Made by a program: the position numbers and the translations under genes
The notes under the pieces: generated by a model
Seen by the model: only the letters and a program-made list of their open reading frames with translations
The model's database searches: none
Told to the model about the DNA's origin: nothing
From: Pseudomonadota bacterium
GTDB lineage: Bacteria; Pseudomonadota; Gammaproteobacteria; Steroidobacterales; Steroidobacteraceae
DNA length: 9,318 nucleotides
Assembly (NCBI GenBank): GCA_021817875.1
Contig: JAKAFQ010000132.1
Span: forward strand, 1 to 9,318
Reading direction: 5' to 3'
Part shown: positions 233 through 9,318 of the stretch, in pieces
Layout: each line of letters opens with the position of its first letter
How positions within the stretch are numbered: the stretch's first letter is position 1

Positions 233-805
233 TCACGCCGACAGCACGCCCTTCTGCCGGGCCGCATGCGTGGCGATCAGATCCATCAGCGCCGGCGACA
301 GGCAGTCATAGGGCTCGAGCCCGAGCTCCTTCAGCCGCGCGCGCACCTCGCCCATCCTCGCCGGCGGAAATCCCGACTCGATGATCGAGGACACGAAGGC
401 GGCGAACTCCGGGGCGGCCCAGCCGGACTGCCCGAACAGCTCCGGGTGCACGAAGTCGAAGCCGTAGAAGGGATGCGCCTTGTTCTCGATGCGCCCGTAC
501 ATGTGCACGCCGCAGCCGCTGCAGGCGTAGCGCTGAATGGGGGCGCTCGCGTCCACGATCTTCAGCTTCTGCTCGTTGGCGCTCACCTTGAGCTTGTCCC
601 GCGGGATCACCGCCACCAGCGAGAACAGCGCCCCCGAGGGCTTCCAGCACTTGGTGCAGCCGCAGACGTGATCGAAGGCGACGTTGCCGCCGAGGCTCAC
701 CGTCACCGGCTGCGAGACACACTTGCAGCTGAGCGTGCCGCCGGCGAACGTGGCGCTGCCCGGCTTGATGCCGTGATCGACCAACGGATGAATCGAGATA
801 GCCAT
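233..805 (-). CDS. gfa: S-(hydroxymethyl)glutathione synthase (glutathione-dependent formaldehyde-activating enzyme, Gfa)
   Basis: This 190-residue cytoplasmic protein is of the Gfa/CENP-V-like zinc family, which promotes addition of formaldehyde to glutathione to give S-hydroxymethylglutathione, the substrate of FrmA. Visible zinc-binding cysteines are C27 and C29 (CKC), C48, C50 and C53 (CGCTKC), and C95 and C98 (CSGC). The conserved [14 protein letters not shown] stretch (about 111-124) and a length close to the roughly 190 residues of known Gfa proteins support the call. The ATG at 805 is preceded by AGAGGAAATACC, which gives a well-spaced ribosome site. It lies only 29 bases downstream of the frmA stop codon, so the two genes are almost certainly one operon. 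Published work disputes whether Gfa is a true enzyme or a glutathione carrier, so the family is surer than the catalytic role. Confidence 0.93.
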
Positions 806-834: not shown

Positions 835-1944
835 TCAGAACGTCACCACCGAGCGGATCGACTCCCCCCGGTGCATCAGATCGAACGCGTCATTGATCTT
901 CTCGATGGGCATCACGTGCGTGATGAGCTCATCGATCCTGATTTTCCCGTCCATGTACCAGTCGACGATCTTCGGCACGTCGGTGCGTCCGCGCGCCCCG
1001 CCGAAGGCGGTGCCCTTCCAGACCCGGCCGGTCACCAGCTGGAACGGGCGGGTCTTGATCTCCTGGCCGGCGCCGGCCACCCCGATGATCACCGACACGC
1101 CCCAGCCGCGATGACAGCACTCGAGCGCCTGGCGCATCAGATCGACGTTGCCGACGCACTCGAAGCTGTAGTCGGCGCCGCCGTCGGTGAGCGCGACCAG
1201 GTGCTGCACCAGGTCGCCGCCGACTTCCCTGGGGTTGACGAAGTGGGTCATGCCGAAGCTCTCGGCGAGCGCCTTGCGGCGCGGATTGAGGTCGACGCCG
1301 ATGATCATGTTGGCGCCGACCAGGCGCGCGCCCTGGATGACATTGAGGCCGATGCCACCGAGGCCGAACACCACGACGTTGGCGCCCGGCTCGACCTTCG
1401 CCGTGTTGATCACCGCGCCCACCCCGGTGGTGACGCCGCAGCCGATGTAGCAGACCTTCTCGAAGGGGGCATCCGCGCGGATCTTCGCCACCGCGATCTC
1501 CGGCAGCACCGTGTACTGGGAGAACGTCGAGCAGCCCATGTAGTGATGCACCATCTGCCCGCCGATGGAGAAACGGCTGGTGCCGTCGGGCATCACGCCC
1601 TTGCCCTGGGTGGTGCGGATCGCGGTGCACAGGTTGGTCTTGCGCGACAGGCAGGATTTGCACTGGCGGCACTCGGGCGTGTAGAGCGGAATCACGTGAT
1701 CGCCCTTTTTCACCGAGCTCACCCCCGGTCCGACATCGACCACGATGCCGGCGCCCTCGTGACCGAAGATCACCGGGAACAGCCCCTCGGGATCGGCTCC
1801 CGAGCGGGTGAACTCATCGGTGTGGCAGACGCCGCTCGCTTTGATCTCGACCAGCACCTCGCCGGCTCTGGGGCCGTCGAGGTCGAGCGTCACGACTTCA
1901 AGGGGCTTGCCGGCCGCATAGGCGATTGCTGCTTTGGTTTTCAT
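835..1944 (-). CDS. frmA: S-(hydroxymethyl)glutathione dehydrogenase (class III alcohol dehydrogenase, FrmA/AdhC)
   Basis: This 369-residue zinc-dependent, NAD-linked dehydrogenase oxidises S-hydroxymethylglutathione to S-formylglutathione, the core step of glutathione-dependent formaldehyde removal; class III enzymes also reduce S-nitrosoglutathione. Catalytic zinc ligands are C40 (GVCHTD), H62 (GHEGAG) and C169 (YIGCGVTTG). The structural zinc set is C92, C95, C98 and C106, and the NAD fold shows GLGGIG at 194-199 followed by GVDLN. Length matches the family. The frame stays open upstream to 2040, but ATG 1944 gives the standard [13 protein letters not shown] start; the ribosome site there is weak. 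It is first in an operon with gfa and is divergent from the regulator at 2184. No S-formylglutathione hydrolase (frmB/fghA) gene and no frmR are in the window. The family call is very secure. Confidence 0.96.
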
Positions 1945-2183
1945 GGATGATCTCGGAGTAATTTCGCGTGAATCCGGCCGGGAGATCCGTTGCCGGTCCG
2001 CGGAGTCTACCCGCGGGCGGATCGAGGTCACGCGGCGCACGCGGCGCCGGCGCCGGGGCTACCGCACTGCTCGGATTTGGAACACCCCCGCCGGCTGCTG
2101 CGCCGGAATCGATGCCGGCGGCGGCCTGAGGCGATCGGTGGCATCATAGGGAGCTATTGGCGGGCGGAAGGGGGGATACGCTC
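1945..2183. promoter_or_regulatory. Divergent control region between frmA-gfa and the regulator
   Basis: These 239 bases separate two divergent genes, so promoters in both directions are expected. A plausible minus-strand sigma-70-type promoter is GTGACC (2031-2026), 16 bases, TAGACT (2009-2004), each box matching consensus at 4 of 6 positions. The TAGACT box sits between two CCGCGG copies (1998-2003 and 2011-2016). GGCGCCGGCGCC at 2043-2054 is a perfect 12-base palindrome. On the plus strand AAGGGGGG at 2168-2175 is the ribosome site of the regulator, 8 bases before its ATG. I found no good plus-strand promoter and no sigma-54 site facing frmA. Confidence 0.4.
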
Positions 2184-4115
2184 ATGCTTCAGGCGCTTGA
2201 CAGCCATGTCCGGCACATCCGCGACGTGCTGCAGGGCACGGTGCGTGACGAGGGATCCGGCCCACCGGAGTACATCCGCCGCTCCTGGGTGCGCTGCCTG
2301 GAGCAGTACCACCTCGATCCACAGTCGCAGCGCGAGCCGTACGTGCTCGCCCGGCAGGAGCGGCTCGCCCGCAAGGAGAACAACCAGGCGCTGATGGCGC
2401 TCGCCGACGCCGAGATGGCGCACCTGTACCACCAGCTCGCCGGCTCGGGCCACTCCATCATCCTCACCGACCGCGACGGGGTGCTGCTCGATTACTACGG
2501 GGACCTGAGTTTTCGCAACGCGGCGTTCCGCACCGGGCTGGTGCTCGGGGCGATGTGGGACGAGGAGCACGGCGGCACCAATGGGATGGGCACCTGCCTG
2601 ATCGAGCGCACGCCGCTGATCGTGCACCGCGAGCAGCACTTTTTCTCGCGCAATACCGGGCTCACGTGCTGCGCGGCGCCGATCTTCGACCCTGACGGGC
2701 AGCTGATCGCGGTGCTCGACGCCTCCGGGGAGTCCGACCGGGCCCAGCAGCACACCCTGGTGCTGGTGAACATGTCGGCGCAGATGATCGAGAACCGGCT
2801 GTTTCTGCACCATTTCCGCGAGGCGTTCGTGGTGCGTTTCCACAGCCGCCCGGAACTGCTCGGCACCTGGGGCGAAGGGATCATCGCGCTCGATGCGGCC
2901 GGCACCATCGCCGCGCTCGATCGCAATGCGCTGTTTCAGCTCGGGCTGAAGAGCGCCGCGGAGCTGGTGGGCGCGCCGCTCGAGCGGGTCTTCACCATCT
3001 CGCTCGAGGCGCTGATCGCACGCAGCCAGCGCAAATCCTTCCACCCGCTGCCGCTGTACGATGCGCGCCACGGCGGGCGGGTGTTCGTCGTGGCGCAGGC
3101 CCCCCAGTCGAAGCGGGCCGGCAGGCCCCACCCGCCGGGCGATGAGTCGCCGCTCAGCGGCTCCGGCCACGGCCCACTCGAGGCGCTCGACCTGGGCGAC
3201 CCGGTGATCGCGCGCAACATCCAGGCGGTGCGGCGCACCCCGTCGCGGGAGATCCCGATCCTGCTGACGGGCGAGTCGGGCACCGGCAAGGAGTACTTCG
3301 CGCGCGCGCTGCACGCCTCGAGCGAGCGCGCGGAGAAACCCTTCGTGGCGGTGCACTGCGGCTCGCTCGCCGAGGCCGAGCTCGCCGAAGAGCTGTTCGG
3401 CCCGGCGCCCTCGCCGGGCGCGGCGCCGCCGGCCCAGGGCCGCATCCTGCAGGCGAACGGCGGCACGCTGTTCCTCGATGACGTCGAGGCGCTGCCCGCG
3501 GAGATCCAGGGCCGGCTGCTGCGCCTGATCGACGAGCGTGAGCTCGTGCGGCCGGGCGAGTCGCCGACACGGGTCGACGTGCGCCTGGTGAGCGCCACGC
3601 GCGGGGAGCTGCAGCAGAAAGTGCAGGCCGGCGCGTTCCGCGAGGACCTTTTCTATCGGCTGCAGGGCCTGGCGCTCAGCCTGCCGCCGCTGCGCGAGCG
3701 CAAGGACAAGGCGGCCCTCATCCGCCAGGTGTTCGCCCAGGAAAGCGCGGCCACCCCCTCGGTGAGCATCGGCGAGGACCTCGTCGATGCGCTCAAGGCC
3801 TACGGCTGGCCGGGCAATATCCGCCAGTTGCGCAACATGCTGCGCGCCATGATCGCCATGCGCGCGAGCGACCAGCTCGATGCCGGCAGCCTGCCGGCGG
3901 ACTACGGCGCGGGTGAGCCGGATTCCGAGATGGAATTGCCGCAGGAGGCGCTCGGACTCAACCCGCTGGAGAAAGCCGAGCGCAGCGCCCTGCTGCACGA
4001 GATCGAGCTGCACCGCGGCAACATCAGCCGCGTCGCCCGTCAGCTCGGCATCGGACGCAACACGCTGTACCGCAAGTTGCGCCGTCTGAGCATCACGCTC
4101 GCCACGCGGCACTGA
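2184..4115 (+). CDS. AcoR-type sigma-54-dependent transcriptional regulator (GAF-PAS-AAA+-Fis) with altered GAFTGA loop
   Basis: This 643-residue enhancer-binding protein has the layout of acetoin-catabolism regulator AcoR and related alcohol-metabolism activators. A GAF sensor spans about 85-205 (EEHGGTNGMGTCL is typical), followed by a PAS-like segment about 226-290. The AAA+ domain spans about 335-560: Walker A GESGTGKE 363-370, Walker B GGTLFLDD 426-433, arginine region FREDLFYRL 485-493 and GWPGNIRQL 541-549. A Fis-type helix-turn-helix lies at about 611-634. Two departures stand out. The GAFTGA loop that contacts sigma-54 reads GAAPPA (412-417), and Walker B ends Asp-Asp where Asp-Glu is usual. 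ATG 2184 is chosen over an in-frame TTG at 2157 because AAGGGGGG sits 8 bases before it. Its ligand is unknown. Its position suggests control of the flanking porin, the formaldehyde genes, or both (inference). Confidence 0.9.
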   Translation: MLQALDSHVRHIRDVLQGTVRDEGSGPPEYIRRSWVRCLEQYHLDPQSQREPYVLARQERLARKENNQALMALADAEMAHLYHQLAGSGHSIILTDRDGVLLDYYGDLSFRNAAFRTGLVLGAMWDEEHGGTNGMGTCLIERTPLIVHREQHFFSRNTGLTCCAAPIFDPDGQLIAVLDASGESDRAQQHTLVLVNMSAQMIENRLFLHHFREAFVVRFHSRPELLGTWGEGIIALDAAGTIAALDRNALFQLGLKSAAELVGAPLERVFTISLEALIARSQRKSFHPLPLYDARHGGRVFVVAQAPQSKRAGRPHPPGDESPLSGSGHGPLEALDLGDPVIARNIQAVRRTPSREIPILLTGESGTGKEYFARALHASSERAEKPFVAVHCGSLAEAELAEELFGPAPSPGAAPPAQGRILQANGGTLFLDDVEALPAEIQGRLLRLIDERELVRPGESPTRVDVRLVSATRGELQQKVQAGAFREDLFYRLQGLALSLPPLRERKDKAALIRQVFAQESAATPSVSIGEDLVDALKAYGWPGNIRQLRNMLRAMIAMRASDQLDAGSLPADYGAGEPDSEMELPQEALGLNPLEKAERSALLHEIELHRGNISRVARQLGIGRNTLYRKLRRLSITLATRH

Positions 4116-4121
4116 CGCGCC

Positions 4122-4146
4122 GCCGGGCGCCCCGCAGGGCGCCGGC
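4122..4146 (+). terminator. GC-rich hairpin just after the regulator gene
   Basis: GCCGGGCGCCC (4122-4132) can pair with GGGCGCCGGC (4137-4146), giving ten pairs with one bulged G around a 4-base loop. It starts 7 bases after the regulator stop codon. There is no run of T after it, so it is not a standard intrinsic terminator. It may stabilise the 3' end of the message or simply reflect the very GC-rich sequence. Confidence 0.3.
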
Positions 4147-4540
4147 GCTGTCCCACGCTTCAACACGGGTACGGCACCGCCGCCACGCGCGCTGGAGCCG
4201 CGCGGCCCCGCACTCTCTGCGCACGGCCCCCGCCGCGGCAGCCGTTGCGGCGGCGACACGCCGCTGCGCGGCCCCCCCCGTTGTATCGCGCTGGCAGAAA
4301 ACGACACACCCCTGTCACCCATCCGGCACAACTTGCGCGATTCCCGTCGGATCCTTCGACTCACCACCTCGTTCACCTCTGAATACCGGCAAGCTATCGA
4401 CGTGCCGGGCCTGCCCGCGTGCGGTCGCGCCGTCAGCCGCGATCTGACACGGTGGCTGCGCCGCTGCTCGCCGGGACGGCACGCGAATGGACTGACGTCG
4501 GTTCGTGTCCCGGGCGCAACAACGCCGCATGCCGGAATGG

Positions 4541-4556
4541 TGGCACGGCATTTGCC
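4541..4556 (+). promoter_or_regulatory. Sigma-54 (-24/-12) promoter of the porin-like gene
   Basis: TGGCACGGCATTTGCC matches the sigma-54 consensus TGGCACG-N4-TTGC at every defined position. The invariant GG (4542-4543) and GC (4554-4555) are exactly 10 bases apart. Transcription would begin near 4567. That leaves a leader of about 30 bases, with AAGGGGG (4582-4588) placed 8 bases before ATG 4597. Strand, distance to the gene and proximity to a sigma-54-type regulator all agree. This is the best regulatory call in the window. Confidence 0.87.
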
Positions 4557-4596
4557 GCGACCCGCCCTTCAAGTGAACAACAAGGGGGTTATTTCA

Positions 4597-5976
4597 ATGA
4601 GACTGCACCGCTTCTCTCCAGGCAGCCTGAGCGGCGCTCTGGCCGGTCTTGTGATCCTGGGCCTGACCATCGTTGCCGGCATCCCGCCCGCCCAGGCGAT
4701 CAGCGTCAAGGCCGGCAAGTGGACCCTGAGCTTCGATGGCAACGTCAATGCGCATTACATCTTCTCGCACTGCCAATCGCTCTCCAACGCGCATGACATC
4801 ACCAACGTGGGCGGCGCCTGCGTGACCTCCACCACGGCGGGAGGCGGCTCTTCGTCCGTGTCGAACGGCCTGCTGCCGGCGGCGCTCACCATCGGCGGCT
4901 CGACCACCCAGGACGGTTATGACATCGGATTCACCTTCGGCCTGTATCCGGGCATCAGCACCAACGATGGCGGCAGCCCCAACATTCAGACCGGGGCTTG
5001 CACCTCGGGCACGGTGACCCCGAACGGCGGCGTCGCTCTCTCCTGCTCGGAGTTTCTCCATACCGCCCTCGGCACCGCCGGCCTGGACATCCGCCAGGTG
5101 TTCCTCACGGTGGGCAACAAGACCATGGGCACCATCATGGCCGGCAGGAACATCGGCCTGTTCCAGTCGGATGCCATCCTCAACGACATGACCCTGCTCG
5201 GCGTCGGAGCCGGAAACGGCGATTACGCCGCGCCGGCCAACACCTCGCTCGGCTCGATCGGCCTCGGCTACATCTACACCGACTGGCTGTCACAGATCGA
5301 CTACACCACTCCGAACCTGTCCGGGACCAAGATCACCGTCGGCATCTTCGACCCGCTCAACACCCTGGGGCAGATTCCGGTCAATCACTCGACTCCGGGC
5401 TTTCAGGCGAAAGTCGCCTACAAGGCGGGCCCGCTGTACCTGTCGGCGAGCGGCATGTATCAGCGGCAGGCGATGTCCTGCGCCGACCCGGCGCTGAACG
5501 CGAACGCCTGCGCCTTCGGGTCCTCCGAGCTCAAGTACAGCAGCAGCGGCATCGACATCGGCGGCATGTACACCATGGGGCCGTTCCAGGCGATGGGCTG
5601 GTATTACCGCGCCAAGGGCATCGGCACCACCGGGCTGTTCGTGCTGTCGAACGACCTCATGGGCATGCCGCGCACCTCCGAGGGCTTCATCGCGCAGCTG
5701 ACCTACACGGTCGGCAAGACGAAGTTCGGGGTGAACTACGGCCAGAGCAAGCTCGACCCCACGGCCAACGACCTCGCGACCCCGACGACGTTGCTGGCCG
5801 GCACCGCCATGCCGACCCTGGTGAGAAAGAACGACAAGTGGACCGCGGGCGTCTATCACCACCTGACGCATGACCTGATGCTGGTCGGGGAATTCAGCCG
5901 GCTGCGTTCGTTCAACGACATGGGGCAGGAGAATGCCAGCTGGAACATCAACGCCGGCCTGTTCCTGAGCTTCTGA
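4597..5976 (+). CDS. Outer-membrane porin-like beta-barrel protein
   Basis: This 459-residue precursor has a Sec signal peptide (about 1-34, basic start, hydrophobic core, ending AQA before ISVKAGKW). The mature part alternates short amphipathic strands with Gly/Ser/Asn-rich loops and ends in LFLSF, the terminal-Phe pattern recognised by the Bam machinery. The segment 166-203 (RQVFLTVG, then GTIMAGRNIGLF) resembles the Gram-negative porin family, where a conserved barrel strand carries a GR pair. It probably admits a small substrate across the outer membrane; the substrate is unknown. Six cysteines fall as three close pairs (59/75, 135/150, 294/305) in likely external loops, unusual for a porin. 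ATG 4597 is supported by AAGGGGG 8 bases upstream and by the signal peptide starting there. It is transcribed alone, from a sigma-54 promoter to a strong terminator. Confidence 0.8.
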   Translation: MRLHRFSPGSLSGALAGLVILGLTIVAGIPPAQAISVKAGKWTLSFDGNVNAHYIFSHCQSLSNAHDITNVGGACVTSTTAGGGSSSVSNGLLPAALTIGGSTTQDGYDIGFTFGLYPGISTNDGGSPNIQTGACTSGTVTPNGGVALSCSEFLHTALGTAGLDIRQVFLTVGNKTMGTIMAGRNIGLFQSDAILNDMTLLGVGAGNGDYAAPANTSLGSIGLGYIYTDWLSQIDYTTPNLSGTKITVGIFDPLNTLGQIPVNHSTPGFQAKVAYKAGPLYLSASGMYQRQAMSCADPALNANACAFGSSELKYSSSGIDIGGMYTMGPFQAMGWYYRAKGIGTTGLFVLSNDLMGMPRTSEGFIAQLTYTVGKTKFGVNYGQSKLDPTANDLATPTTLLAGTAMPTLVRKNDKWTAGVYHHLTHDLMLVGEFSRLRSFNDMGQENASWNINAGLFLSF

Positions 5977-5993
5977 CACGGTCCGGCGTCTGC

Positions 5994-6035
5994 AGTGCCG
6001 GTGGCCCGCCCGCGGCGTCACCGGCACTTTTTTTT
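5994..6035 (+). terminator. Rho-independent terminator of the porin-like gene
   Basis: AGTGCCGGTG (5994-6003) and CACCGGCACT (6019-6028) form a perfect 10-base stem around a 15-base loop. The last T of the stem begins a run of eight Ts (6028-6035). It lies 17 bases after the porin stop codon, on the correct strand. It ends the plus-strand unit before the convergent minus-strand genes. Confidence 0.93.
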
Positions 6036-6222: not shown

Positions 6223-6250
6223 GCCGGGCCCGACGGGCGCGCGGCCCGGC
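6223..6250 (-). terminator. Hairpin overlapping the cytochrome c stop codon
   Basis: GCCGGGCC (6223-6230) and GGCCCGGC (6243-6250) are a perfect 8-base inverted repeat with a 12-base loop. On the minus strand the stem begins at the last base of the cytochrome c stop codon. No T-run follows, so termination is possible but unproven. The rest of 6036-6222, between the two converging transcription units, shows no gene I can support. Confidence 0.4.
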
Positions 6251-6708
6251 TACTTTCCGGCCGGCTTCGACTTGCCGGCCAGGGAATGCACGTAGGCGAC
6301 CAACTCCCAGATCTTGTGCTTGGAAAACGACCACTTCCAGGGCGGCATCGACTGGCCACCCACGACCCGACCATTGGAAATGGTCAGGTACAGATACGTC
6401 AAGGTAAGACCCTTGCGCCCCTTGAGGCGCGGCCCCCGGCCGCCGGTTCCCTCGAACCCGTGACAGTAGGCGCAGGTCGACGCGAACGTCCGTTCACCAG
6501 CGGCGATCACCTTGGGATCGTGGATGTTGACCAACGGTTTGAAGTGTTCGCTCAGAAACGCCGGTGTGGTGCCGTTTCCGGTCTGCCCCTCGACCGACCC
6601 CAGGGCGAAGCGGCCAAGCAAGCCGAGCCCCACCAGGCACGCGACTCCGGCGCCCACCAGCACCATCCGCGAGCGCGCACCCGAATTCGAGACATGACTA
6701 CGGTCCAA
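6250..6708 (-). CDS. Membrane-anchored mono-haem cytochrome c, probable electron acceptor of the PQQ dehydrogenase
   Basis: With the start chosen here this is a 152-residue class I cytochrome c. The haem site is CAYCH (C79, C82, H83) and the likely sixth ligand is M121 in GQSMPPW, the usual spacing for a small cytochrome c. A hydrophobic stretch at about 15-37 without a clear cleavage site suggests an N-terminal anchor, leaving the haem domain in the periplasm. The TTG at 6708 is preferred because GGGAGGA (6722-6716) sits 7 bases upstream. An in-frame ATG at 6666 lacks a good ribosome site but would keep the anchor. The more distant ATG at 6786 would put a 28-base palindrome inside the gene. 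It follows the PQQ dehydrogenase on the same strand after 93 bases, which fits a role in accepting electrons from it (inference). Confidence 0.85.
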   Translation of the reverse strand: MDRSHVSNSGARSRMVLVGAGVACLVGLGLLGRFALGSVEGQTGNGTTPAFLSEHFKPLVNIHDPKVIAAGERTFASTCAYCHGFEGTGGRGPRLKGRKGLTLTYLYLTISNGRVVGGQSMPPWKWSFSKHKIWELVAYVHSLAGKSKPAGK

Positions 6709-6749
6709 ACCCAAATCCTCCCACGAAATCCTCTCCGCCCAAAACGGAA

Positions 6750-6777
6750 CCCGGTCGGCGCCGCGGCGCCGACCGGG
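6750..6777 (-). repeat. 28-bp perfect palindrome between the PQQ dehydrogenase and cytochrome c genes
   Basis: The two 14-base halves, 6750-6763 and 6764-6777, are exact reverse complements; the left half begins CCCGGTCGGC. In minus-strand RNA this folds into a very stable hairpin starting 25 bases after the dehydrogenase stop codon. TTCCGTTTT follows immediately (6749-6741), a weak U-rich tail. It may be a leaky terminator or attenuator, or a 3' RNA-stabilising hairpin that sets more dehydrogenase than cytochrome. A DNA-binding site is the other reading. Confidence 0.75.
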
Positions 6778-6801
6778 ACTGCGCACTCGTTCAGCCTCTC
6801 A

Positions 6802-8502
6802 TCAATTGAGCGAGAATACCACGATCGCCGAACCCGCCTGCAGCTTCGTGATGGATGGGAATGCGCTCGCCATGAAGCCCGGCGCCAGCGAACCAAAGCC
6901 ACTCGCCACGGCAATATACTGCTTGCCGTTGACCGAGTAACTCACGATGCCGCCACGCACACCGGAACCGACGTTGAAGTGCCACAGTTGCTGGCCGGTC
7001 TTGGCGTCATACGCGTGCACGATACCTTCCGGATCGCCGTTGAACACCAGTCCGCCGGCCGTGGTGAGCACATCGCCCAGCCCGGGAATCGGGTACACGA
7101 CCTTCCACGCCACCTTGCCGGTGAACGGATTGAGCGCCTCGAGCCAGCCCCTGGCGGGCCGTCCCGGCGGATGAACCGCCTGCAGGCTCGACACACCGAG
7201 GTACAAACCGGTGATACCGATCTTCTTCGGATTCTGCATCTCGGGGACCGCTTCCTCGCACACATCCATGGTATTGAGGTACCACAGCCCGGTCTGCGGA
7301 TTGTAGGCGCCCGGATTCCAGCTGGAGGCACCGATCAGGTAGGGGCAGATCAGGGTCTTCTTGCCCGGGGGCAGATCGCCCATCTGCCCGATCAACTGTC
7401 CCGTCTTCGGGTTGATGCTCTTGACCCAGGTGTAGTCATGGAGCACAGACCAGACGTTACGCAGCTTGCCGCTGTCGGCATCCATCACCCACACGAAGCC
7501 GTTTTTGTTCTCGTGGACCATCTCCCGACGACCGTCGTGGTCGATGAACAACGGGTCGTACACCGAGTCGAAGTCGTAGTGATCGTGTGGGACTTCCTGC
7601 CGATACCACTTGATGTGCCCGGTCTGCGGATCCAGCGCCAGCACAGTCGACGAGTACAGGTTGTTGCCGTGACGGTGATTGTAGTAAAAATCCGGCGCCG
7701 CGTTGCCCACACCGATGTACGCCGTGTTGGTCGTGGGATCATATTCTCCGACGTTCCACGCCTGGGAACCGCCGACTTTCCAGGTGTTGTCGGGCCAGCT
7801 GGCCGAATCCGCCTTCGTCGTGTACAGCTTCCACATCAGCTTGCCGGTCAGGGCGTTGACGCCGAAGATCGTGCCGCGGGTCGGCTGATCACCGCCCGTG
7901 GTGCCACCGATCAGCACGTCTCCAGCCAGCATCGGCGTGGAGGAAAACACGCAACCGTAACATTTCTTCAGATCGGTCAGCTGCGTCGACCACACCCGCT
8001 TGCCCGTCTCCTGGTTGATCGCCACCACGCGGCCGTCCAACGTGCCGAGGTAGACGAATCCGTGCCCCAGGGTGATGTTGCGGCTCTGATGGTCATAGAA
8101 GCTCGCCGCATGAATCGGCGCCAGGTGTGGCTGGTAATGCCAGATCACCTTGCCGGTGACCGCATTCAGAGCGTAAACATTGTTGTCCGGAGCAACATAA
8201 TACATCACGCCGTTCTCGACCAGCGGCGTCGACAGCAACCCGTTGGTGATGTCGCCGGACTGCTGGATCCAGGCAACGTGCAGGTGCTTGACGTTCGACG
8301 CGTTGATCTGGCTCAGCGGGCTGTACCGCCAGCCGTTCCAGGTGCGATTGTACTGCGTCCAATTATCGGGGTTGGCACTTGCGACGCTGAGCATGTTCGC
8401 CCGGACCTGCGACACCCCCACTCCGAATAGTGACAAAGCCAGGACACCGGCCAGCGGCGCGGCGCGGACCTTGGCCCTTTTAAATGGCTTGAGATTCATC
8501 AT
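6802..8502 (-). CDS. PQQ-dependent alcohol dehydrogenase, lanthanide-type active site, atypical cysteines
   Basis: This 566-residue quinoprotein has a Sec signal peptide (about 1-35, ending QVRA) and the eight-bladed propeller of the methanol/ethanol dehydrogenase family. Repeated DxxTGK blade motifs are visible, such as NAVTGK, NQETGK, NALTGK and DAKTGQ. By motif comparison the metal and catalytic residues are D205 (GGDQPTRG, where Glu is usual), N267 (GVGNAAP) and the base D310. D312 follows in HYDFDSV; this Asp two places after the base marks XoxF- and PedH-like lanthanide enzymes. W249 fits the Trp beneath PQQ. The vicinal Cys-Cys is absent (HAAS, 131-134), while CYGC occurs at 181-184. 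Two ATG codons (8502, 8499) follow GGAG; either could be the start. There is no haem motif, so electrons must leave via a separate cytochrome. The substrate is unknown. Confidence 0.9.
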   Translation of the reverse strand: MMNLKPFKRAKVRAAPLAGVLALSLFGVGVSQVRANMLSVASANPDNWTQYNRTWNGWRYSPLSQINASNVKHLHVAWIQQSGDITNGLLSTPLVENGVMYYVAPDNNVYALNAVTGKVIWHYQPHLAPIHAASFYDHQSRNITLGHGFVYLGTLDGRVVAINQETGKRVWSTQLTDLKKCYGCVFSSTPMLAGDVLIGGTTGGDQPTRGTIFGVNALTGKLMWKLYTTKADSASWPDNTWKVGGSQAWNVGEYDPTTNTAYIGVGNAAPDFYYNHRHGNNLYSSTVLALDPQTGHIKWYRQEVPHDHYDFDSVYDPLFIDHDGRREMVHENKNGFVWVMDADSGKLRNVWSVLHDYTWVKSINPKTGQLIGQMGDLPPGKKTLICPYLIGASSWNPGAYNPQTGLWYLNTMDVCEEAVPEMQNPKKIGITGLYLGVSSLQAVHPPGRPARGWLEALNPFTGKVAWKVVYPIPGLGDVLTTAGGLVFNGDPEGIVHAYDAKTGQQLWHFNVGSGVRGGIVSYSVNGKQYIAVASGFGSLAPGFMASAFPSITKLQAGSAIVVFSLN

Positions 8503-8777: not shown

Positions 8778-9318
8778 TCAGAACGAGAAGTTCAGACCTG
8801 TCATGACGTATTCGGTGTTCACCCCCGGCTGCACATAACCATCGGCGACGATACTGGTCAGAATGGTGGCCTTCGGGCCCTGGTTGACGAACGCAAAGTC
8901 TGCGTAGAGGGTCACCCAGTGAGTCACGTGAAAATCGTCGCTCAGGATCGCATCGTGCGTGTAATCGCCGCTGTGCAACTGGTCGTGGTTGTAGTAGTAG
9001 GCGAGCGTTGCGCTGTTTCGTGGACTCCACTTCCAGCTGACCCCGGCGCCGAACGCACCGATCTTGACGTACGGCGCGCCAGTGAGCGCGTAGTTGTCCC
9101 GCGACTGGATGTAGAGCGTCCGAAACGTGAATGCCTTGTACGGCACCGCGAAGCCCGCCGACCACTGGACGACGTCTTTCTTGCCGGTGATCTGGTCGAC
9201 CATCTGCTGATAGGACCCGGAAATCACGATCGGGCCATTGTACGTGATGCCGAACGCATCCACACTGTTGTACTTGAACCCATTATTCATGCCACCGAAC
9301 GCATGCATGATGCCGATC
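8778..9318 (-). CDS. Outer-membrane porin, C-terminal part (gene continues beyond the window)
   Basis: About 180 C-terminal residues of a second outer-membrane beta-barrel are present. The frame runs open through the right edge, so the N-terminus and signal peptide are missing; the ATG at 9308 is internal or uncertain. The visible part alternates aromatic-rich strands (WSAGFAVPY, TFRTLYIQSRDNYAL, ATLAYYYNHDQ, VTLYADFAFV) with short turns and ends MTGLNFSF, a terminal-Phe barrel signal. It resembles general trimeric porins of proteobacteria (the Porin_4-like group) more than a TonB receptor. It lies upstream of the PQQ dehydrogenase on the same strand, but the 275-base gap suggests separate promoters. 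A role in uptake of the dehydrogenase substrate is inference from context only. Confidence 0.75.
   Translation of the reverse strand, partial: IGIMHAFGGMNNGFKYNSVDAFGITYNGPIVISGSYQQMVDQITGKKDVVQWSAGFAVPYKAFTFRTLYIQSRDNYALTGAPYVKIGAFGAGVSWKWSPRNSATLAYYYNHDQLHSGDYTHDAILSDDFHVTHWVTLYADFAFVNQGPKATILTSIVADGYVQPGVNTEYVMTGLNFSF

Follow-up and report, generated by a model that had tools for sequence, protein, structure and literature searches.

Enhancer-binding proteins (bEBPs) of sigma-54 promoters carry a GAFTGA motif in loop L1 of their AAA+ domain, and in most cases GAFTGA mutants make activation impossible (PMC7175178). Several paralogues have lost this motif. In DhaR, TyrR and HupR it is changed or deleted, and these proteins are sigma-70 dependent (PMC3162934). 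NtrC of R. capsulatus and Caulobacter as well as VpsR provide precedents for bEBP paralogues which lack L1 or the motif and act on sigma-70 promoters (PMC10274813). Mixed bEBP complexes have been described for HrpR/HrpS, FleQ/FleT, VnfA1/VnfA3 and RedR1/RedR2 (PMC9542535), and sensor-less activators under control in trans make up bEBP group 4 in the table of PMC7175178.

In this study, we analyse a regulator without GAFTGA, REG, which is encoded beside a sigma-54 promoter in a 9,318-nucleotide stretch of DNA from a member of the Steroidobacteraceae; this whole stretch is referred to as the window. We regard it as fairly probable that REG is a sigma-54-independent regulator at the adhC-gfa genes and that the porin promoter next to it is not its target and is served by another activator.

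REG (2184..4115, + strand; ORF from the ATG at 2184) is an AcoR/DhaR-like protein of 643 amino acids. Domain profiles reveal a GAF sensor domain (2397..2801, +; Pfam PF01590, E 2.7e-12), a Sigma54_activat AAA+ domain (3204..3677, +; PF00158, E 2.2e-46), an AAA lid and a Fis-family HTH (3966..4085, +; PF02954). An earlier note on this DNA had described the AAA+ domain as complete except for its L1 motif and for a Walker B ending in DD. This description is accurate: Walker A, GESGTGKE (3270..3293, +), is intact, Walker B is LFLDD (3468..3482, +) where canonical activators have DE, and GAFTGA is missing, residues 412-417 being GAAPPA (3417-3434). Among about 5.8 billion proteins searched, 7,997 candidates were scored and 7,792 of them were homologues with E <= 1e-30; the best 120 of these were read. 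Walker A is GESGTGKE in 115 of these 120 best-listed homologues and has one residue changed in five, and Walker B ends in DD in 117 of them, the other three having DN; judged from these sequences, DD is a feature of the clade. Three cysteines of the GAF domain (138, 162 and 163, including a CC pair; 2595-2597, 2667-2672) are invariant in 52/52 aligned sequences, and a role in aldehyde or redox sensing is possible. A structure prediction of REG (AlphaFold, 52 sequences) was too poor for use, with a mean pLDDT of 53.4 and a pTM of 0.30.

DhaR, the regulator of the dihydroxyacetone kinase operon of E. coli (NF008485), is the best NCBIfam match of REG, but the 280.7 bits do not come near the curated cut-off of 551. 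At its N-terminus, REG is similar to 4lrx, a DhaR fragment of known structure (E 4e-6), and both proteins are devoid of GAFTGA, in DhaR together with sigma-70 dependence (PMC3162934). DhaR has a small deletion at the motif (PMC3162934), whereas REG has a linker of very variable length instead of L1; dihydroxyacetone kinase neighbours are not found in the window, where REG is neighboured by adhC, gfa, a porin gene, cytochrome c and a PQQ dehydrogenase. NtrC of R. capsulatus and Caulobacter, HupR, VpsR and TyrR are, like REG, paralogues of bEBPs without L1 or the motif, but their losses are described as deletions (PMC3162934, PMC10274813), whereas the site in REG is hypervariable in length and sequence. 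Against the TyrR model NF008085, REG scores 179.6 bits (curated cut-off 576). All these NtrC, HupR, VpsR and TyrR proteins have N-terminal domains other than that of REG. With AcoR-type sigma-54 activators, REG shares sensor, AAA+ domain and Fis-type HTH, and GAFTGA-bearing relatives (L104-L106) are 44-45% identical to it; AcoR-type activators have GAFTGA and DE, however, where REG lacks the motif and has DD. Walker A and the Fis-type HTH are common to REG and to sigma-54-activating bEBPs, but no conserved -24/-12 element is present at its likely targets, adhC and REG itself.

In the place of L1, HMMER alignments and homologue comparison place a hypervariable linker, PAPSPGAAPPAQ (3402..3437, +), which contains GAAPPA. 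The earlier note had taken GAAPPA as a stand-in for GAFTGA, and here it does not hold. The spacing from ELFG is five residues for GAAPPA and three for GAFTGA; HMMER alignments of REG to ZraR and FleQ open a gap of two residues at the place of L1; and the 5m7n protein (which we take to be NtrX), likewise without GAFTGA, aligns to REG with a gap just behind this place. Close relatives of REG have unrelated strings of other lengths where REG has GAAPPA. Among the 120 best-listed homologues (70-100% identity; best 120 of 7,792), GAFTGA or GA[FYW][TS]GA occurs in none, and GAAPPA only in REG itself and a 99% copy. Since just these two carry it, we dropped the idea of a variant motif with a clade of its own, for which the earlier note had proposed a check, and a common subtype of GAAPPA variants was not seen, GAAPPA itself not being conserved. 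The stretch from the NC/HC motif to the GGTLF strand was measurable in 119 of the 120 best-listed homologues, where its length ranges from 20 to 61 residues and its composition is often rich in Ala, Pro, Gly and Ser; in canonical cores it comprises 31 residues in all 27 measurable of 31. The loops of the porin-adjacent REG copies in the window's group of relatives are PTPEA (G021), PAPAAAPQAR (G022), PAPAAAPEMR (G020) and ASLASGSDPAQ (G179). Because strings and lengths vary and the alignments show gaps, loop L1 is taken as lost, with a poorly constrained linker standing in its place; on this comparison, GAAPPA is part of a hypervariable Ala/Pro/Gly linker and no substitute motif.

GAFTGA is absent from all 25 distinct REG copies picked by identity alone (at least 58% to the AAA+ part of the window's REG). 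A pattern search of the fetched loci gave 52 distinct enhancer-binding cores: 21 without GAFTGA, all from the window or from REG-matched loci, and 31 other activator cores, all with it (31/31). In a tree of the 52 cores, REG forms one clade (support 100/100) on a long stem (1.62); the REG label was set here by the missing motif, and the identity-only count of 25 copies is the independent check. The position of the clade beside the GAFTGA-bearing L104-L106 is weak (89/48) and flagged as long branches meeting. Several sources name REG-type proteins sigma-54-dependent activators, which very probably does not describe their mode of action. Judged by titles and abstract openings, with few subscription papers covered, no published AcoR-type clade without GAFTGA beside adhC-gfa was found.

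Divergent from REG lies adhC (835..1944, -), encoding a class III alcohol / S-(hydroxymethyl)glutathione dehydrogenase (TIGR02818, 611.9 bits against a cut-off of 543.95), and behind it gfa (233..805, -), encoding S-(hydroxymethyl)glutathione synthase (TIGR02820, 311.7 against 234.55). Among 24 REG loci on genome contigs, adhC is divergent from REG in 19; L008 and L019 leave no room for it, and L020-L022 are REG copies without adhC. Wherever the contig reaches so far (14 of the 19 loci), gfa comes next after adhC. By title, all 24 loci are from metagenome bins, so that absences can be gaps.

Between adhC and REG we find a palindrome, TGTYCC-N5-GGAACA, as the likely operator of REG. The candidate copy of the window, the 17-bp TGCTCGGATTTGGAACA (2068..2084, no strand assigned), has two mismatches to this consensus and is the sole match to TGTYCCRATNCGGAACA within three mismatches in the window. 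Of 20 intergenic regions (19 loci and the window), 13 have the palindrome exactly, five with one mismatch and two, the window among them, with two; 4,000 mononucleotide shuffles gave no exact palindrome, three with one mismatch and 52 with two, and the window's copy is equalled by 55 of the 4,000. On the REG side, the palindrome centre lies 65-68 bp from a CATAAT/CATACT box in 19/20 regions; on the adhC side, it lies 72-74 bp from an AGTYTA-like box in 18/20 (76 bp in L017, 108 bp in L013), the window included, where by-eye assignment gives TAGACT (2004..2009, -) at 72 bp. The relatives have such -10-like boxes at near-fixed spacing; the window is the one exception on the REG side, where the box is not kept. 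If the boxes are -10 boxes, the palindrome centre would by eye lie at about -80 for both genes. The 20 intergenic regions share no -24/-12 element at a conserved position, the best single match having one mismatch and occurring in L017 only. As a counterpoint, the weakest palindrome copy is the window's own, which also lies beside no CATAAT.

When 22 genomes were scanned for the exact palindrome, it turned up at 23 places in 17 of them, against two for a reversed control pattern. Sixteen of the 23 are the adhC-REG site and seven lie elsewhere, among them copies between an aldehyde dehydrogenase gene (named by eye) and an AcoR-type gene (G005) or a PQQ-dehydrogenase gene (G006, G007); in these, TGTTCC-N5-GGAACA stands at position 1501 of L113 (beside the AcoR-type gene) and of L119 and L126 (beside the PQQ-dehydrogenase gene). 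The other four of the seven are not clearly at a gene start. The copies at aldehyde dehydrogenase genes may point to a wider alcohol/aldehyde regulon, and the palindrome may be bound by other AcoR-type proteins, too.

Because of the GAFTGA-less precedents and the adhC-gfa neighbourhood, REG is most likely a DhaR-like, sigma-54-independent regulator of formaldehyde oxidation. It would be a ligand-sensing bEBP paralogue that has lost the sigma-54 contact loop, would bind TGTYCC-N5-GGAACA in the region that separates adhC-gfa from the REG gene, some 80 bp ahead of either putative start, and would probably control housekeeping-sigma transcription of the genes of glutathione-dependent formaldehyde oxidation and of itself. 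Binding, sigma factor, direction of control and ligand are what we infer from the comparison. The option of the earlier note that comes out strengthened is that of a repressor or sigma-70 regulator: every examined member is loop-less, and an operator-like palindrome lies between -10-like boxes with no conserved -24/-12 element.

As for the mode of control, activation is a little likelier than repression. That REG acts on adhC-gfa and on its own gene solely by repression, which differs from our preferred reading only in the sign of control, is the strongest of the alternatives, if still an unlikely one. A single operator common to two divergent promoters would suit autorepression. TyrR also represses some promoters. 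Likewise, Caulobacter NtrC, which lacks GAFTGA, represses some promoters (PMC10274813). However, with its centre at about -80 to both putative starts, the palindrome is distant for steric repression and has a position that fits an activator, and by eye there is no good -35 on the adhC side.

Behind REG lies the porin gene (4597..5976, +; 459 amino acids, Porin_4 by ORF and Pfam). It is preceded by a sigma-54 -24/-12 element, TGGCACGGCATTTGC (4541..4555, +), which the earlier note had pointed out and which matches all ten fixed positions of TGGCAC-N5-TTGC; the element begins 426 bases past the end of the REG stop codon (4115) and 56 bases before the porin ATG. The window alone proves little in this respect, since TGGCAC-N5-TTGCW (11 positions) with up to two mismatches occurs at six places in it against 4.5 expected; the proof lies in conservation. 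A porin relative is present in 21/22 genomes. Among 23 porin loci, 22 have upstream sequence, and in all 22, from 20 genomes, the element is found (17 exact, five with one mismatch); it is exact also in the window, G179 and G176. A second candidate element, the 16-bp TGTCCCGGGCGCAACA (4506..4521, no strand assigned; TGTYSC-N4-GCRACA), is a likely enhancer site of the porin promoter; the pattern is exact in the window and G179, is seen more or less by eye in the other loci, and is not significant within the window alone. We found rpoN in 22/22 genomes. Ten of these (G001, G010, G011, G013-G019) have a second, lower-scoring Sigma54_DBD match above the cut-off and probably two rpoN genes.

In relatives, the porin has an activator gene of its own. 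A second, short bEBP is encoded behind REG, convergent to it, in nine of the 24 loci (L002-L009, L012), and the porin follows in all eight of these nine that reach far enough. In these nine loci, the short activator has GAFTGA and a Walker B with DE and no sensor domain. It resembles the sensor-less bEBPs PspF and HrpR-HrpS, which likewise consist of AAA+ and HTH with GAFTGA, but differs from them by its AcoR-like core and its position divergent to the porin. An orthologue is found in 19/22 genomes, and in 16 of these 19 it is divergent to the porin on the same contig, including eight genomes with REG elsewhere (G010, G011, G013-G016, G018, G019); in G005 and G017 the two genes are on different contigs, and in G001 the porin was not found. 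By eye, the upstream region of the short activator has an unscored GTTCC-N6-GTGACA, noted with a possible relay from REG to this activator in mind.

The window lacks the short activator: the stretch between REG and the porin promoter (4116..4505), which in the nine loci of the comparison holds it on the - strand, is without it. In G020, G021, G022 and G179, no orthologue was found at the same match level, and the gene immediately ahead of the porin is REG, or what a contig start leaves of its C-terminal part, just as in the window. The evidence for the absence in the window's group comes from these four genomes and from the window, which has no gap where the gene would be expected. A remnant was sought in 3901-4700 by tblastn with the nine short activators and rejected, the only strong match being REG's own HTH (3963-4127, +) and all others having E above 0.3. 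The simplest history would be that the window's group lost the short activator, as opposed to never having had the gene. The element at 4541 would then belong to the porin, its ancestral activator being a separate, divergently encoded GAFTGA bEBP; with that gene gone, an unlinked activator would now serve the promoter, a takeover that we infer. The suggestion of the earlier note that another activator fires the porin promoter is supported by a GAFTGA activator divergent to the porin in 16/19 relatives; for the window's group itself, such an activator was not identified in the loci and genomes compared. When the gene of the true activator disappears, a sigma-54 promoter can be left next to a loop-less regulator, a neighbourhood that misleads.

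Two further observations touch the link between activator and porin. Among 11 distant full-length activators with wide flanks from REG-less genomes, six adjoin the porin, each time with TGGCAT-N5-TTGC upstream of it (6/6), and the other five are without it alongside; as a counterpoint, the link is therefore not universal. As another, each of the five known members of the window's group has kept REG beside the porin, and a functional link could exist there.

It is improbable, though worth weighing, that REG and the short activator form a split pair, with REG as the sensor and the short activator as the GAFTGA motor, acting jointly at the porin promoter and perhaps at adhC, either in mixed hexamers or as a relay, with the sensor-less activator under the control of REG. 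In a draw of 200 genomes of the family (REG at E <= 1e-150, porin-type activator at E <= 1e-95), a REG-level match occurred in 20, three of which are GAFTGA-bearing sisters, so that 17 hold REG; the porin-type activator occurred in 46, namely 15 of the 17 REG genomes and 31 others. All 53 activator copies inspected, from the 46 genomes and further REG genomes of the 22-genome set, have GAFTGA. Where REG is present, the porin activator is sensor-less in 17/17 judged; where REG is absent, a GAF-type sensor is kept in 28/30 judged (G001, G005 and the copy inspected in G157 were not judgeable). These complementary losses hint at a division into sensor and motor, possibly from one event. In favour of such a pair, 17 of the 19 sensor-less genomes with contig room hold REG, 28 REG-less genomes have sensor and GAFTGA in one activator, REG and the short activator are neighbours in 9/24 loci, and both control of sensor-less activators in trans (bEBP group 4, PMC7175178) and mixed complexes (PMC9542535) are known.

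On the other hand, G176 and G200 have a sensor-less activator, and REG was not found in them; the activator gene of G176 runs off the end of its contig and G200 yielded no porin either, and both REG absences may be gaps. The REG holders G013 and G017 have an extra full-length activator copy besides the short one. In the activator tree, sensor loss needs one or two changes, and the correlation may therefore be a single event in one lineage. The REG palindrome (N5) differs from the porin element (N4). Moreover, REG persists in the window's group (G021 and G179 each have two copies) although the short activator is missing, which means that it cannot depend on that activator there. Were the split real, it would offer a rare and testable example of two AAA+ paralogues that divide sensing and remodelling between them, and would raise the question which activator serves the orphaned but conserved sigma-54 promoter. 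We are slightly more doubtful still that REG and its partner replace one ancestral sensor-plus-motor porin activator, and that the window's group lost the motor and duplicated REG, which left two loop-less paralogues with near-identical sensor halves.

We think it very unlikely that, in the window's group, REG makes a non-canonical contact and in this way activates the sigma-54 promoter of the porin itself. REG does stand directly before the porin in the window, G020, G021, G022 and G179, the usual activator is absent there, and the promoter persists. Against this, the place of L1 is taken by a hypervariable linker of low complexity, Walker B ends in DD, the REG-type palindrome was not found near the porin (no match to TGTYCCRATNCGGAACA within three mismatches in the window outside 2068-2084), and other GAFTGA bEBPs exist in genomes of the window's group (L044-L046). 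A new way of contacting sigma-54, as contemplated in the earlier note, has nothing for it beyond adjacency to the promoter. Finally, a sequencing error or a decaying pseudogene as the reason for the missing GAFTGA can be dismissed as next to impossible, and with it a return of the motif on resequencing, for the motif is missing in 120/120 best-listed homologues at 70-100% identity, and 52 aligned REG members agree without exception in the Walker A lysine and in the REDLFYR, GN-R and HTH positions.

Concerning the REG copies of the window's group, G020 and G021 each have one copy beside adhC-gfa (L023, L024) and another that is not (L020, L021). To judge by the loop common to P0007 and L099, the adhC-side copy of G021 is seemingly not the porin-side one; for this reason, not all relatives of the window appear to share its adhC-REG-porin block. 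In G020, G021, G022 and G179, the contigs that carry REG break off within the gene. Two REG paralogues, P0003 and P0006 (with the loops of L103 and L107, both G179), are identical over their first 300 or so residues (50/50 in six consecutive blocks) and differ in their AAA+ and HTH halves (50-96% per block), which looks like concerted evolution of the sensor half.

A plasmid search with window positions 2000-6000 gave no match. Behind the porin, the window encodes a PQQ-dependent alcohol dehydrogenase and a cbb3-III-type cytochrome c (6250-8502, -); together with adhC-gfa, they suggest a locus of C1 or short-alcohol oxidation. At its end (8778-9317, -), an open-ended ORF of 179 amino acids has no Pfam or NCBIfam match at E 0.001 and looks, by eye, like the end of an outer-membrane beta-barrel.
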